64,000 nucleotides of DNA, taken from positions 682,001-746,000 of the forward strand of contig NZ_CANLZZ010000002.1 in the NCBI RefSeq assembly GCF_947495725.1. Direction: 5' to 3'. The translations under genes and the position numbers were made by a program. Under the pieces are notes generated by a model. That model had not been told where the DNA came from. It worked only from the letters and a program-made list of their open reading frames with translations, and made no database searches. Source of the stretch: an uncultured Lutibacter sp. (GTDB lineage Bacteria > Bacteroidota > Bacteroidia > Flavobacteriales > Flavobacteriaceae). Shown piece by piece: positions 3,297 through 63,573 of the stretch (position 1 is its first letter; each line of letters begins with the position of its first letter).

Positions 3297-3470
3297 GGTT
3301 TTAAAAACCTGTAAGGGCTTTAATGCGTTAGCGATAGGAGAGACATCCTTTTTTTAAGAGTAACGTAAAAAAGATAAAACGAATAGCGCGACCTGAAAGG
3401 AAACGCCCAAAAGAGATAGTTAAAAGTTGTAAAGTTTTCGCTGATAAAGCTAAAGACGAATAGCTAATTG
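3297..3470. repeat. Structured non-coding spacer resembling a dispersed flavobacterial element
   Basis: The 212-bp gap between metH and metF has no plausible reading frame. It holds runs such as GCGTTAGCGATAGGAG, a T-rich tract, GAATAGCGCGACC and GGAAACGCCC. From memory, similar blocks recur between genes in other flavobacterial genomes, but I could not search for this. The GGGC near the start can pair with GCCC near the end, and internal arms could form further helices. It may be a mobile or structured RNA element; no function is claimed. Confidence 0.4.
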
Positions 3471-58223: not shown

Positions 58224-58253
58224 TTGGTGTTTTAATTTTTATGTATAGATTTG
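58224..58253 (+). promoter_or_regulatory. Promoter of the phenylalanine/tyrosine operon
   Basis: TTG (58224-58226), 19 bases, then TAGATTTG (58246-58253). It places transcription start near 58260, about 13 nt before the leader peptide start. Confidence 0.8.
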
Positions 58254-58272
58254 TGCTCATATTTAAGGAATT

Positions 58273-58335
58273 ATGTTAACAAACAACACTTGGAATAGCT
58301 TCTATTTTTACTTTTATTTTAACAATAAGAGATGA
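58273..58335 (+). CDS. Aromatic amino acid leader peptide (attenuator)
   Basis: A 20-codon reading frame, too short for routine calling, whose product contains a Trp at residue 7 and then the run FYFYFYF (residues 10-16), with no protein-like pattern otherwise. It lies about 13 nt downstream of a consensus promoter. It precedes a terminator-type hairpin and the pheA-tyrA operon. This is the design of Phe/Tyr leader peptides: slow translation at the Phe/Tyr codons reports charged-tRNA shortage. The stop codon (58333-58335) overlaps the antiterminator arm. Confidence 0.9.
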   Translation: MLTNNTWNSFYFYFYFNNKR

Positions 58336-58402
58336 GGCTTTGTATGTGTTAGTTACAAAATATAAATTATAAAGTCTCGAAATTATTTCGGGATTTTTTT
58401 TT
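58297..58402 (+). promoter_or_regulatory. Transcription attenuator of the Phe/Tyr operon
   Basis: Four pairing segments are visible. Segment 1 is AGCTTC (58297-58302), just before the FYFYFYF codons. Segment 2 is GAGGCTTT (58334-58341), overlapping the leader stop. Segment 3 is AAAGTCTCGAAA (58371-58382) and segment 4 is TTTCGGGA (58386-58393) followed by T9. 1:2, 2:3 and 3:4 can each pair, with one G-T pair each. A ribosome stalled at the Phe/Tyr codons covers 1 and frees 2:3 (antiterminator); one that reaches the stop covers 2 and lets 3:4 terminate. Confidence 0.85.
58375..58402 (+). terminator. Attenuator terminator hairpin
   Basis: TCTCGAAA and TTTCGGGA form an 8-bp stem (one G-T pair) with a TTA loop and nine T. 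It ends 17 bp before the ATG of pheA. Confidence 0.85.
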
Positions 58403-58418
58403 GACAATATACCAACTA

Positions 58419-59237
58419 ATGAAAGTAGCAATTCAAGGAATAAAAGGATCTTTTCACCATATTGTGGCGGAGAAATATTTTGGAAAAAATATAGACTTGT
58501 TAGAGTGTTTGTCTTTTTCTGAAATGCCCGATCTGTTAAAAAATAAAGAGGCAGATGTACTTATTATGGCAATAGAAAACTCTATTGCTGGTGCAATTTT
58601 ACCTAATTATGCACTTATTGATGATCATCAATTAACAATTTGTGGTGAATTTCATTTACCTATTCAGCATAATTTAATGGCTTTAAATGGGCAATCGATA
58701 GAAGATATTAAAGAAGTATATTCACATCCTATGGCACTATTACAGTGCCATAAATTTTTTAAAGACTATCCGCATATTAAATTAATTGAAGACAAAGATA
58801 CTGCATCGGTAGCTAAAAGAATTCGCGATAATAACTTAAAAGGTGTTGGAGCAATTGCAAGTGTTTTGGCGGCCGAGACCTATGATTTAACTATTTTGGC
58901 TGCAGAAATTCAAACAATAAAAGAGAATCAAACTCGATTTTTTATTATTACTAATAATAAAGATAAAAGTAGTGTTTCGGCTAATAAGGCTTCAATTAAG
59001 TTTACTACAAGTCATAGTTCGGGAAGTTTGGCAGAAGTATTAACTATTTTAGCAAAACACGATTTAAATTTATCTAAAATACAATCGATGCCAGTTATTG
59101 AAACTCCTTGGAAATATGCATTTTTTGCGGATTTTATATTTAAAAGTTATGCCGATTATTTTAATGCAATTGAAGAAGTAAAAGATAAAGTTGAAGCATT
59201 GGAAATTTTAGGAGAATACAACAAAGGAAAAAGATAA
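58419..59237 (+). CDS. pheA: Prephenate dehydratase
   Basis: A 272-residue monofunctional prephenate dehydratase with no chorismate mutase domain. The catalytic domain is about 1-175 (IENSIAGAI, and the TRF motif in NQTRFFII) and a C-terminal ACT domain is about 185-272. The usual Phe-binding ESRP reads QSMP here, so feedback by Phe may differ. Start at ATG 58419, because an in-frame TTG at 58401 lies in the attenuator T-run. It is first in the Phe/Tyr operon. Confidence 0.93.
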   Translation: MKVAIQGIKGSFHHIVAEKYFGKNIDLLECLSFSEMPDLLKNKEADVLIMAIENSIAGAILPNYALIDDHQLTICGEFHLPIQHNLMALNGQSIEDIKEVYSHPMALLQCHKFFKDYPHIKLIEDKDTASVAKRIRDNNLKGVGAIASVLAAETYDLTILAAEIQTIKENQTRFFIITNNKDKSSVSANKASIKFTTSHSSGSLAEVLTILAKHDLNLSKIQSMPVIETPWKYAFFADFIFKSYADYFNAIEEVKDKVEALEILGEYNKGKR

Positions 59238-60391
59238 TGATACAAAAAGCTGACAGACTAAGTGATGTTAAAGAATACTACTTTTCTAAAAAATTAAGAG
59301 AAGTGGCAGCTTTAAGAAATGAAGGGAAACCAATAATTAATATAGCTATTGGAAGTCCAGATTTACAACCACCTGCAAGTGTAATTCAAGCGCTCCAAAA
59401 TGCGGTTGAACTACCAAACGCGCACCAATATCAAAGTTACCAGGGAATACCTGAATTGCGCGAAGGAATTTGCAATTTTTACAAAGAAAAATACAATGTT
59501 TCATTAAATATGAATACCGAGGTGCTTCCACTAATGGGGTCCAAGGAAGGTATTATGCATATTTCAATGGCATTTTTAAATAAAGGAGATAAGGTTTTAA
59601 TTCCAAATCCGGGTTATCCTACCTATGCTTCAGTAACAAATTTAGTGCAAGCTGAAGCAATCAATTATGATTTAAATGAAGCTTCTAATTGGTTACCAAA
59701 TTTTGAGGAGTTAGAAAAAGAAGATTTAACCAATGTTAAAATTATGTGGGTTAATTACCCTCATATGCCTACAGGAGCCGTTGCAAGCAAAGAAAATTTT
59801 AAACAATTAATTGCATTTGCAAAAAAACACGATATTTTAATTGTAAACGACAACCCTTACAGTTTTATATTGCATAAAAATCCAATTAGTATTTTAGAAG
59901 TTGAAGGAGGTAAAGAAGTGGCTATTGAATTAAATTCTTTAAGCAAAACCTTTAATATGGCTGGTTGGCGTGTTGGAATGGTAGTTGGAGATGCTTCAAT
60001 AATTAAAACCATATTACAAGTAAAAAGCAATATGGATTCTGGAATGTTTTTAGGAATTCAAAAAGGAGCAGTGGAAGCTTTTAAATTGAATAATGATTGG
60101 TTTGAAAGTCAGAATGAGATATACAGAAATAGAAGAGCAATAGTTTGGAAAATATTTGATGCGTTAAATTGCACCTATGATAAAACTATTGGAGGATTAT
60201 TTGTTTGGGCTAAGTTACCTGAAGGAATAACTTCTGAAGAAATTACAGACGAATTATTGTACACTAAAAATGTATTTATTACACCTGGAACCATATTTGG
60301 CTCAAATGGAGCAGGATATATAAGGGCTTCATTATGTGTTGAAGAAACGGTTTTGAACGAAGTTTTAGACAGATTAACAACTGAAAATTAA
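59237..60391 (+). CDS. Class I/II aminotransferase (aromatic/aspartate type)
   Basis: A 384-residue PLP aminotransferase with NPGYPTYASV, the conserved Asn/Asp region in VNYPHMPTGA and VNDNPYSF, and the PLP lysine in LSKTFNMAGWRVG. By context it converts phenylpyruvate and 4-hydroxyphenylpyruvate to Phe and Tyr. A one-base overlap (TAATG) with pheA suggests coupled translation. Confidence 0.92.
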   Translation: MIQKADRLSDVKEYYFSKKLREVAALRNEGKPIINIAIGSPDLQPPASVIQALQNAVELPNAHQYQSYQGIPELREGICNFYKEKYNVSLNMNTEVLPLMGSKEGIMHISMAFLNKGDKVLIPNPGYPTYASVTNLVQAEAINYDLNEASNWLPNFEELEKEDLTNVKIMWVNYPHMPTGAVASKENFKQLIAFAKKHDILIVNDNPYSFILHKNPISILEVEGGKEVAIELNSLSKTFNMAGWRVGMVVGDASIIKTILQVKSNMDSGMFLGIQKGAVEAFKLNNDWFESQNEIYRNRRAIVWKIFDALNCTYDKTIGGLFVWAKLPEGITSEEITDELLYTKNVFITPGTIFGSNGAGYIRASLCVEETVLNEVLDRLTTEN

Positions 60392-60395
60392 GGTT

Positions 60396-61253
60396 ATGAA
60401 AAAATTAGTTGTAATAGGTTTAGGATTAATTGGTGGATCGTTGGCGTTGGACTTGAAAAAACGAGGCAATTTTAAAGTGTATGGTATGGATCAAAATCCA
60501 GCTCATATTAAAAAATCTATTGAACTTGGTGTAATTGATGAAGAAATTTCATTTGCCGATATAACAAATGCAGATGTAATTATAATTGCTGTGCCGGTTA
60601 ATGTAGTAGCAGGTTTAACCTTGAAAGTACTGGATATTATTTCAGATACAACGTTGGTTTTTGATGTTGGTTCAGTAAAAAATGAAATATGTAAAGAAAT
60701 TTCAAGTCATTCAAAAAGAAAGAATTTTGTGGCTGCACATCCTTTAGCTGGAACTGAATTTTCGGGACCCGAAGCGGCTATTTATGATTTATTTGATGAA
60801 AAAGTAAACATCATTTGTGAAGCAGATAAAACGGATTGGAGGATTTTAGATAATGCTATTAGTTTATTTAAACTATTGAATATGCGTATAAAAATGATGA
60901 ATCCTGTGGAGCACGATAGGCACATTGCATATGTTTCACATTTATCGCACGTAAGTTCTTTTATGTTAGGAAAAACGGTGTTGGAAATTGAAAAAAATGA
61001 ACAAGCTATTTTTGATATGGCAAGCACTGGTTTTGCTTCAACAGTTCGTTTGGCTAAAAGTTCAGCAAATACTTGGACACCTATTTTTTTAGAAAATAAA
61101 GAAAACATTATAAAGTCGTTAGACGAGTATATCAAAAACTTGAACGAATTTAAAGAATTGATAAAAAACAATAATGCCGAAGCATTGAACGAATCAATGA
61201 ATGGTACAAATTATATTAAAAGTATATTAAACGGAATTAAAGAAAGCAACTAA
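60396..61253 (+). CDS. tyrA: Prephenate dehydrogenase
   Basis: A 285-residue NAD-dependent TyrA with GLGLIGGSLALDLK (8-21), DVGSVK, HPLAGTEFSGP and HIAYVSHLSHVSSF. It oxidises prephenate to 4-hydroxyphenylpyruvate. Length matches the monofunctional, ACT-less form. It starts 4 bp after the aminotransferase. Confidence 0.94.
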   Translation: MKKLVVIGLGLIGGSLALDLKKRGNFKVYGMDQNPAHIKKSIELGVIDEEISFADITNADVIIIAVPVNVVAGLTLKVLDIISDTTLVFDVGSVKNEICKEISSHSKRKNFVAAHPLAGTEFSGPEAAIYDLFDEKVNIICEADKTDWRILDNAISLFKLLNMRIKMMNPVEHDRHIAYVSHLSHVSSFMLGKTVLEIEKNEQAIFDMASTGFASTVRLAKSSANTWTPIFLENKENIIKSLDEYIKNLNEFKELIKNNNAEALNESMNGTNYIKSILNGIKESN

Positions 61254-61270: not shown

Positions 61271-62347
61271 ATGGAAATTACTAAAGAAAACAGAAAATGG
61301 TTAGACAATATGGGTTTATCTCACCCAATTGTAATTGCAGGACCATGTAGTGCGGAAACTGAAGAGCAAGTATTAAAGACAGCACATTTATTAAAAGATA
61401 CAGATACGAATGTATTTAGAGCAGGGATTTGGAAACCAAGAACAAGACCAGGTGGTTTTGAAGGTGTTGGAGCTGTTGGTTTACCTTGGTTACAAAGAGT
61501 ACGTGAAGAAACTGGAATGAAAATTACTACAGAAGTAGGTAATGCAAATCACGTTGAGTTAGCATTAAAAGCTGATGTAGATATTTTATGGATTGGTGCT
61601 CGTACAACAGTAAATCCATTTGCAGTTCAAGAAATTGCAGATGCATTAAAAGGTGTTGATAAACCGGTGTTAGTTAAAAACCCAGTAAATCCAGATTTAC
61701 CTTTATGGTTAGGTGGTGTTGAGCGTTTTCAAGCGAACGGAATTTCTCAATTAGGTGTTATTCACCGTGGATTTTCTGCATACAATACAGGTCATTACAG
61801 AAATAAACCAAAATGGCATATTGCTATTGAATTAAAGAAAGAATTTCCAGATTTACCATTAATTTTAGATCCATCACATATTTGTGGTCGTAGAGATACA
61901 ATTTTAGATGTTTCTCAAACAGCTTTGGATTTAAACTTTGATGGATTTATGATTGAAACTCATATTGATCCAGATAATGCGTGGAGTGATGCTGCTCAGC
62001 AAATTACACCAGCTCAATTAGATCAAATTACTCAGGATTTAAAAATTCGTCAAAAAAGTAGTTCAAAGGAAAGCTTCCAAAGTAAATTAAATTTATACCG
62101 TAAAGAATTAGATTTAATTGACAATAATATTATTGATATTTTAAGCGATAGAATGACCATTGCAGAGAATATTGGAAAACTAAAACACCAAGAAAACGTA
62201 GCTATTTTACAAAGTGGACGTTGGTCTGATATTTTATCGCATATGATAGAATTAGGAATAGAAAGAGGTTTAAGTAAAGAATTTGTGGAAGAAGTATTTA
62301 AAGCAATTCATGTAGAATCAATAAATATTCAACACAGAGCTAAATAA
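61271..62347 (+). CDS. DAHP synthase fused to chorismate mutase
   Basis: A 358-residue bifunctional enzyme. Residues 1-260 are a type I-beta DAHP synthase (AGPCSAE, FRAGIWKPRTRPGGF, DPSHICGRR). Residues about 268-350 are an all-helical AroQ-type chorismate mutase (YRKELDLIDNNIIDILSDRM). It supplies both the first shikimate step and the chorismate-to-prephenate step that pheA and tyrA need, since neither carries a mutase domain. It ends the operon. Confidence 0.95.
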   Translation: MEITKENRKWLDNMGLSHPIVIAGPCSAETEEQVLKTAHLLKDTDTNVFRAGIWKPRTRPGGFEGVGAVGLPWLQRVREETGMKITTEVGNANHVELALKADVDILWIGARTTVNPFAVQEIADALKGVDKPVLVKNPVNPDLPLWLGGVERFQANGISQLGVIHRGFSAYNTGHYRNKPKWHIAIELKKEFPDLPLILDPSHICGRRDTILDVSQTALDLNFDGFMIETHIDPDNAWSDAAQQITPAQLDQITQDLKIRQKSSSKESFQSKLNLYRKELDLIDNNIIDILSDRMTIAENIGKLKHQENVAILQSGRWSDILSHMIELGIERGLSKEFVEEVFKAIHVESINIQHRAK

Positions 62348-62595: not shown

Positions 62596-63573
62596 ATGAA
62601 ACCTGTAGAATTAATTAAACAACCGATACTTAAAGAAATGGAACTCTTTGAAAGTAAATTCAAAGAATCCATGATAACTAAGGTTCCTTTATTAAATAGG
62701 ATTACACATTATATTGTTAGAAGAAAAGGAAAACAAATGCGACCAATGTTTGTGTTTTTGGTTGCAAAAATGGTTTCTGGCGGAAGGTTTGAGGAACGCA
62801 CTTATAGAGGGGCTTCAATAATAGAATTAATTCATACTGCAACTTTAGTTCATGATGATGTAGTGGATGATAGCAACAGAAGAAGAGGTTTTTTCTCGGT
62901 TAATGCTTTATGGAAAAATAAAATTGCAGTGCTTGTTGGTGATTTTTTACTTTCGAAAGGCTTATTATTATCTATTGATAATAATGATTTTGATATTTTA
63001 AAATTGATTTCGGTTGCGGTACGCGAGATGAGCGAAGGCGAATTGTTACAAATTGAAAAAGCCAGGCGTTTAGATATTACTGAGGATATTTATTTTGAAA
63101 TTATACGTCAAAAAACAGCTACGCTCATTGCTGCTTGTTGTGGAATTGGTGCTGCATCAGTGGAGAGCTCTGCCGAAGAAATTGAAAAGATGCGTAAATT
63201 TGGAGAGTTGATAGGTTTGGCTTTTCAAATAAAAGATGATTTGTTTGATTATACAGATGCGCACATAGGAAAACCTACAGGTATAGATATTAAAGAGCAA
63301 AAAATGACGTTACCTTTAATTTACGCTCTAAATAATTGCTCGGATAAAGAAAAAAAATGGTTGATTAACTCGGTTAAGAATCATAATAAAAATAAACAAA
63401 GGGTAAAAGAAGTTATTGAATTTGTTAAAGCAAGTGGAGGAATTGAATATACCACAGAACAAATGAAAAACTATCAATCACAAGCATTTGAGATATTAAA
63501 TAGTTACCCAGATTCTAAATACAAAGAATCCTTAGTGACTATGGTTAACTATGTTGTTGATCGTAAAATATAA
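62596..63573 (+). CDS. Polyprenyl diphosphate synthase
   Basis: A 325-residue all-trans isoprenyl diphosphate synthase: first Asp-rich motif HDDVVDDS (about 91-98), RRKGKQMRP substrate site (about 42-50) and second motif KDDLFDYTD. Length and the small residues before the first motif fit an octaprenyl/medium-chain enzyme that makes the quinone side chain. It stands alone between a possible MITE and a convergent gene. Confidence 0.93.
   Translation: MKPVELIKQPILKEMELFESKFKESMITKVPLLNRITHYIVRRKGKQMRPMFVFLVAKMVSGGRFEERTYRGASIIELIHTATLVHDDVVDDSNRRRGFFSVNALWKNKIAVLVGDFLLSKGLLLSIDNNDFDILKLISVAVREMSEGELLQIEKARRLDITEDIYFEIIRQKTATLIAACCGIGAASVESSAEEIEKMRKFGELIGLAFQIKDDLFDYTDAHIGKPTGIDIKEQKMTLPLIYALNNCSDKEKKWLINSVKNHNKNKQRVKEVIEFVKASGGIEYTTEQMKNYQSQAFEILNSYPDSKYKESLVTMVNYVVDRKI

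Follow-up and report, generated by a model that had tools for sequence, protein, structure and literature searches.

The DNA directly upstream of pheA very probably encodes a classical ribosome-mediated (leader-peptide) transcription attenuator of the pheA-aminotransferase-tyrA-DAHP synthase/chorismate mutase operon. It lies in a 64-kb stretch of a 4.24-Mb Flavobacteriaceae assembly, called the window below; all coordinates refer to it, and all features lie on the plus strand. The original prediction had described a full attenuator at this place, and this reading, which we base on the sequence and its relatives, is strongly supported by the conservation of the element, the covariation of its stems and the position of its control codons.

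The element starts with a promoter of the Bacteroidota sigma-A type. A TTG forms the −33 element (58224-58226), and after a 19-nt spacer it is followed by the −7 element TAGATTTG (58246-58253), which has the TAnnTTTG form of the promoter consensus given in PMC9723704. The predicted TTG-N19-TAGATTTG arrangement is thus present at 58224-58253. Among the relatives, 50 of 73 leaders have TAnnTTTG no more than 70 nt upstream, compared to 8.3% of shuffled upstream sequences, and 49 of these 50 matches are located 17-23 nt ahead of the leader ATG. TTG sits 17-21 nt 5' of TAnnTTTG in 32 of the 73.

The leader reading frame, MLTNNTWNSFYFYFYFNNKR followed by a stop, consists of 20 codons and a TGA (58273-58335, with the ATG at 58273 and the TGA at 58333-58335) and is conserved in the family. 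The control codons that had been predicted for it, seven in a row and alternating between Phe and Tyr (TTC TAT TTT TAC TTT TAT TTT, that is, Phe-Tyr-Phe-Tyr-Phe-Tyr-Phe), can be read directly at 58300-58320. Most Lutibacter leaders have the sequence NTWNSFYFYFYF(S/N)NKR or one near it. In the window, there is only one short ATG reading frame (8-45 aa) with at least seven consecutive Phe/Tyr residues, while the mean in 40 first-order Markov simulations is 0.03, and a chance origin of such a run is unlikely. For pheA, the most probable start is the ATG at 58419 (MKVAIQG), where the relatives align and which is separated from the end of the T9 tract by 16 nt. A TTG at 58401 was also considered as the start of pheA, but it overlaps the T tract and the relatives align to the ATG instead.

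Four segments in the leader RNA can form three mutually exclusive hairpins. Segment 1 (58285-58318, from the fold and the pair counts) has three arms, 58285-58289, 58297-58302 and 58311-58318. The outer one pairs with 58346-58350, the middle one pairs through AGCTTC at 58297 with GAGGCT at 58334, and the inner one pairs with 58324-58331 (AATAAGAG), where 92.4% of the cells of this third helix are paired. Part of the F/Y codons are included in the inner arm as paired bases. Segment 2 (GAGGCTTTGTATGTGTT, 58334-58350) can alternatively pair with segment 3 (ATAAAGTCTCGAAA, 58369-58382) to form the antiterminator 2:3, in which GAGGCTTTGTAT, starting at 58334, pairs with ATAAAGTCTC, ending at 58378; both segments were assigned from the fold, the pair counts and the cross-count described below. 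Segment 3 is in turn also the partner of segment 4 (TTTCGGGATTTT, 58386-58397, from the fold and the pair counts) in the terminator hairpin 3:4, which is AAAGTCTCGAAA/TTTCGGGATTTT and is completed by the T9 tract of the intrinsic terminator (58394-58402). The predicted hairpins and the T9 tract are thus all found where they had been placed, although the 1:2 helix is longer than proposed. The fold of the leader RNA (58254-58402) beats 200 of 200 dinucleotide shuffles, with a z value of −3.1. The genome contains one further stretch of DNA that matches the leader region (L002, 81% over query bases 160-220), but this is just a terminator between other genes.

The functions of the four genes that were expected to follow the leader are confirmed by family models. 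These are pheA, a prephenate dehydratase with an ACT domain (58419-59237; PF00800 with 1.7e-56, PF01842 with 27.5 bits, its cut-off being 27), a class I/II aminotransferase (59237-60391; PF00155 with 6.7e-59), tyrA, a prephenate dehydrogenase (60396-61253; NF006307 with 360 bits against a cut-off of 295), and a fusion of DAHP synthase and chorismate mutase (61271-62347; PF00793 and PF01817). For the aminotransferase, none of the 25 NCBIfam matches listed, out of 80, exceeds the cut-off of its model. The next gene is a polyprenyl synthase at 62596, past a gap of 248 nt. The closest named relatives of the window's PheA are from Lutibacter, the best with 86% identity. The downstream genes make thus the amino acids that are coded in the leader. 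The earlier statement that they make exactly Phe and Tyr is not quite accurate: apart from the DAHP synthase of the operon, none was found in the assembly, where the other PF00793 gene encodes a KDO8P synthase and nothing matches PF01474, and the operon should therefore also feed Trp.

The control codons match the hairpins in their position. To compare them, 52 aligned leaders were used, which remained from 74 after the removal of near-identical ones; L067, which is without a leader, and L064, a duplicate from the same contig as L005, had been left out before that. At 15-27 nt ahead of segment 2, 257 of the 260 codons specify Phe or Tyr and one specifies Trp. The residue is aromatic at 27, 24, 21, 18 and 15 nt in 51, 52, 52, 52 and 51 of the 52 leaders, with F, Y, F, Y/F and F, respectively, as the main residues; Y is found in 42 leaders at 24 nt and F in 49 at 21 nt. 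The aromatic share, which is 98-100% over this stretch, then drops to 21% (11/52) at 12 nt. The aromatic codons thus end where the edge of a ribosome, with the 12-nt codon in its A site, would start to reach over segment 2.

The codons themselves are also informative. All 170 TTN codons in the stretch encode Phe, none of them having A or G as the third base, and the third bases over all 260 codons are T in 189, C in 69 and G in 2 cases (T or C in 258). The third base varies between T and C while no TTN codon encodes Leu, and what is constrained is thus the amino acid and not U-richness. The leader is thus a short reading frame, presumably translated, with a constrained cluster of codons for the end products of the operon.

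Alignment of related genomes had been proposed as a check of the prediction, and the stems were therefore examined in the same 52 leaders, using the window's own fold as the aligned structure. In the 3:4 hairpin, 96.1% of the cells are paired, with 28 two-sided changes compared to 12.8 in shuffles. In 1:2, the corresponding numbers are 82.7% and 87 changes compared to 37.8, and changes of this kind occur in each of its three helices. The 2:3 pairing, on the other hand, is no better than shuffles in the family alignment, with 9 cells against 7.4 and 81.1% paired against 81.6%; the 81.1% is far higher than the 22-51% of slid versions, over which a structure taken from the window's fold is favoured.

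For 2:3, we have also made a cross-count that does not presuppose the pairing, covering family and class (96 of 99 loci with a parsed terminator). When segment 3 has GTCTC, 69 of 71 loci have GAGRC downstream of the aromatic run and one has GGGRC, and when it has GTCCC, GGGRC is found in 19 of 22 loci and GAGRC in none. On distinct stretches the counts are 50/52 for GTCTC/GAGRC and 15/18 for GTCCC/GGGRC, these being related sequences and thus not independent events. The cross-count supersedes an earlier finder of segment 2 that was restricted to 5-mers complementing segment 3, which made its agreement partly a matter of construction; in 22 of 96 loci, this finder chose GAGAT or GAGGT, mostly just 5' of the true GAGRC. 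In the class alignment, segment 2 is apparently misaligned in three rows. Taken over the relatives, the F/Y run is thus conserved, 1:2 and 3:4 covary, and 2:3 is backed by the cross-count over family and class, which gives the three exclusive hairpins with a U tract before the first gene.

The element is widespread in the family. pheA was found in 178 of 199 Flavobacteriaceae genomes, the window's included, and 150 pheA places were listed. A covariance model built from the 52 leaders (R1) matches 167 of the 199 genomes at E 5e-4, some of the matches being away from pheA. The model has a match at most 400 nt upstream in 133 of the 150 listed pheA genes, with a median gap of 23 nt, and an aromatic-rich short reading frame, which is a looser criterion than the model, is present upstream in 16 of the remaining 17. 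The sole listed family gene without a leader upstream is that of G023. In G013 and G128, the leader reading frame is ca 510 and 900 nt from pheA, respectively, and both are also R1 matches. In the latter, a further reading frame (L128:835-1425), which we take to resemble a small transposase, lies between the leader and pheA and parts the attenuator from its gene. Another arrangement is seen in G060 (L126:806-2800), with genes named by their likeness to those of the window: the DAHP synthase gene comes directly after pheA, without aminotransferase or tyrA between them, and the leader keeps both Phe and Tyr codons.

A search of named contigs gave a leader in 45 of 46 Bacteroidota loci, with L067 as the one without, and in none of the 9 loci from Desulfovibrio, Bilophila and Deltaproteobacteria. 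A class-wide search with R1 gave matches in 158 of 395 genomes at E 0.01, of which many below the best 30 loci may be due to chance. Among the best-scoring fetched loci outside the family, 20 of 22 precede pheA with F/Y(/W) leaders; the other two, L113 and L114, are not before pheA. In the phylum sample, 10 of 14 class-mates outside the family with pheA have the leader (7 of 11 fetched and 3 from the class search), and G219, G489, G324 and G292 have none. Altogether, the element precedes pheA in ten families, the window's included (f1, f3, f7, f16, f22, f36, f41, f45, f50 and f63). Outside the class, 77 genomes have pheA and 21 of these were examined, of which only G595 and G635 have the leader; their PheA proteins, with 45% identity and E 1e-71, are far above those of the other 19. 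The leader is found before pheA of the class and outside the class only where PheA matches well, which means that the element goes with the Bacteroidia-type pheA. The two genomes outside the class (L147 and L148), with a Bacteroidia-like PheA and an F/Y leader, could represent a transfer of the gene together with its attenuator, or a misplacement.

The attenuator would operate as follows. A shortage of charged tRNA-Phe, and probably also of charged tRNA-Tyr, would cause the leading ribosome to stall within the F/Y run. At this position it would be over segment 1 and just short of segment 2, such that 2:3 could form, the terminator 3:4 would be blocked, and the operon would be transcribed. When both charged tRNAs are plentiful, the ribosome would proceed to the stop codon and cover segment 2, leading to formation of 3:4 and to the end of transcription at T9. 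If the leader were not translated at all, segment 2 would be held in 1:2, and termination would result in this case too. We infer both the translation of the leader and the switch in termination from the anatomy of the element.

Folding calculations for the RNA before segment 4 are in line with this scheme. The probability of 2:3 has a mean of 0.92 with the ribosome at an aromatic codon, 0.47 at other positions and 0 at the stop, and it is at least 0.5 at some aromatic codon in 51 of the 52 leaders. At equilibrium with segment 4 present, the terminator has a mean probability of 0.85 over the 470 aromatic A-site codons and 0.94 over other codons, and only 15 of the 52 leaders have an aromatic codon at which it drops under 0.5. 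In the window's leader, the values are 0.16-0.34 at six of the seven codons of the run and 0.90 at the first. Since the terminator stays high at equilibrium, the switch would have to rely on the order of folding during transcription, as is assumed for other attenuators. In the ribosome-free RNA before segment 4, 2:3 beats 1:2, with a probability of 1.00 for the window and a mean of 0.70 for the 52 leaders (below 0.5 in 13 of them). The role of 1:2 as a protector would then be kinetic or partial, and in the window's own RNA it may, according to the model, be a weaker brake. With these reservations, the placement of the codons is such that a stall would free segment 2 while a ribosome at the stop codon would cover it.

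It is plausible that one leader of this kind senses both Phe and Tyr. Both kinds of codon are conserved inside the stall window, which fits a two-input leader. A larger set of 94 distinct leaders was also considered, 29 from the Lutibacter clade, 41 from the rest of the family and 24 from the class search (25 loci, 5 of them in the family). Phe and Tyr codons are both present in all 94 and Trp in 58; as the leaders were selected for aromatic content, the presence of aromatic codons is partly by choice, while the presence of both kinds is not. Leaders with codons for more than one amino acid are known from ilvGMEDA and thrABC of E. coli, the amino acids being branched-chain ones and Thr rather than aromatic ones. 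As an element widespread in Bacteroidia, the attenuator would be an OR gate, in which a shortage of Phe or Tyr, or possibly of any aromatic amino acid, stalls the ribosome in the fixed F-Y-F-Y/F-F window. We consider the chances of this proposal to be even.

Another possibility, to which we give some but limited credence, is that the attenuator senses Phe only and that the Tyr codons are tolerated passengers, either because TAY is one step away from TTY or because of the RNA pairing. The nearest precedent, aroR of C. glutamicum (Neshat 2014, via PMC11802643), has a Phe-Tyr-Phe leader before a DAHP synthase gene and acts by ribosome stalling. It resembles the present element in the mixed leader and the link to DAHP synthase, but it belongs to a different phylum and another operon, and it is reported to answer Phe and not Tyr limitation, which speaks against a simple reading of Tyr sensing. 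Moreover, the Tyr at 18 nt before segment 2 (Tyr in 32 and Phe in 20 of the 52 leaders) is part of a paired stretch, in which column 53 is matched by column 63. However, Tyr is specific to certain positions. At 24 nt, where it is the residue in 42 of the 52 leaders, the second base of the codon is unpaired in the window's 1:2 fold, and the next codon is Phe in 49. In addition to the occurrence of Tyr in every distinct leader, the eight-codon core of the 24 class-search leaders has Tyr 84 times and Phe 80 times, whereas the other residues that are one step away from Phe hardly occur in the 94 cores (Leu, Ile and Cys once each, Val and TCN serine never). Finally, tyrA is in the operon.

The Trp codon upstream of the run (W7, 58291-58293) had been suggested as a third input, and that a single leader senses all three aromatic amino acids in this way appears unlikely to us. 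The alignment column is indeed aromatic in 49 of the 52 leaders, W is found somewhere in more than half of the distinct ones (the 58 given above), and the supply of Trp should depend on the DAHP synthase of the operon, which, as the only one found, makes a Trp input sensible. On the other hand, 24 leaders have W in this column, while 14 have Y, 11 have F and 3 another residue, that is, W is replaced by Y or F at its position. Furthermore, a single codon is expected to stall the ribosome less than a run, trpE carries a WWW leader of its own, and a ribosome at W7 gives a 2:3 probability of just 0.17 in the equilibrium model, yet 1.00 without segment 4.

It is highly improbable that the F/Y run is a side effect of the need for a U-rich pairing segment, in an element that would terminate constitutively or be bound by a protein or ligand. 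Part of the run does pair with AATAAGAG in the inner 1:2 stem, but the third bases swap between T and C with A or G in none of the 170 TTN codons, the aromatic stretch stops at the distance of the ribosome edge, and the leader has no match at threshold to any Rfam family.

With regard to known systems, the attenuator interpretation has a counterpart in the enterobacterial pheA leader, pheL, which is a Phe-rich leader with exclusive hairpins and a terminator. The Lutibacter element is like pheL (RF01859) in having a leader peptide, the proposed attenuation and a position before pheA; it differs in that the leader alternates Phe and Tyr and that the operon includes tyrA and DAHP synthase. For pheL, leader-peptide attenuation with a reported response to Phe-charged tRNA is described (PMC11802643). 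The RF01859 model (Phe_leader) gives the present leader 21.2 bits and E 0.25, compared to a gathering threshold of 55, and a scan of the leader with Rfam 15, including T-box and other riboswitches, gave nothing at the gathering threshold.

For F. psychrophilum, clues of leader-peptide attenuation before amino-acid operons are described in PMC9723704 (2021), together with a pheA 5' element that is also present in other Flavobacteriaceae, without Rfam hits. Judging from the gene and the family, it is very probably the same element as that of Lutibacter. The section of that paper on the pheA element names no Phe/Tyr codons, pairing segments or spread beyond the family, and a literature search, with the supplementary tables of PMC9723704 outside its scope, gave no account of Phe/Tyr codons in the pheA element or of a class-wide spread. 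As the mechanism is of a textbook kind and the element had already been noticed in flavobacteria, the novelty is modest. Such attenuators in Bacteroidetes may also have been predicted earlier by Lopatovskaya (2010).

Similar leader peptides are found elsewhere in the same genome, namely IIWWWNSLMQ before trpE (L118, C4 at ca 304 kb), FHHHHLN before hisG (L121, C3 at ca 517 kb) and the Ile/Val leader IINIISVVVVVIIS before ilvD (L122, C2 at ca 769.6 kb). Each is followed by a terminator-like hairpin, read by eye, and Rfam gave nothing at threshold in eight fetched loci, the trp, his and ilv leaders included. With Trp, His and Ile/Val leaders in one genome, this form of attenuation appears to be in general use there. 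Outside the window, upstream of 647759 (L199, G000:C2), two tandem Met/Cys-rich reading frames, MNTMFNKMRTMMCKNYTRRAIV and MNKDIKNIKSTQLKMRMQIMCISMSWYCLN, precede a gene for O-acetylhomoserine sulfhydrylase. Two reading frames with at least five Met/Cys occur in 18 of 19 same-genus loci scanned, the own one included (L185-L203), and at L124:2873-3195 there is an intrinsic terminator, read by eye, after each of them. From its sequence, the pair looks like a tandem Met/Cys attenuator of a methionine operon. The window also contains, at 3318-3397, a Flavo-1 RNA (RF01705, 47.1 bits), the function of which is not clear according to PMC9723704.

The attenuator upstream of pheA offers a testable RNA switch for the synthesis of aromatic amino acids in Bacteroidia, one without a matching family in the Rfam searched, and it is a clean case for the question of whether a mixed-codon leader truly senses two amino acids. 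If the OR gate were true, a shortage of either Phe or Tyr would turn on the whole terminal pathway of both amino acids, together with its DAHP synthase.
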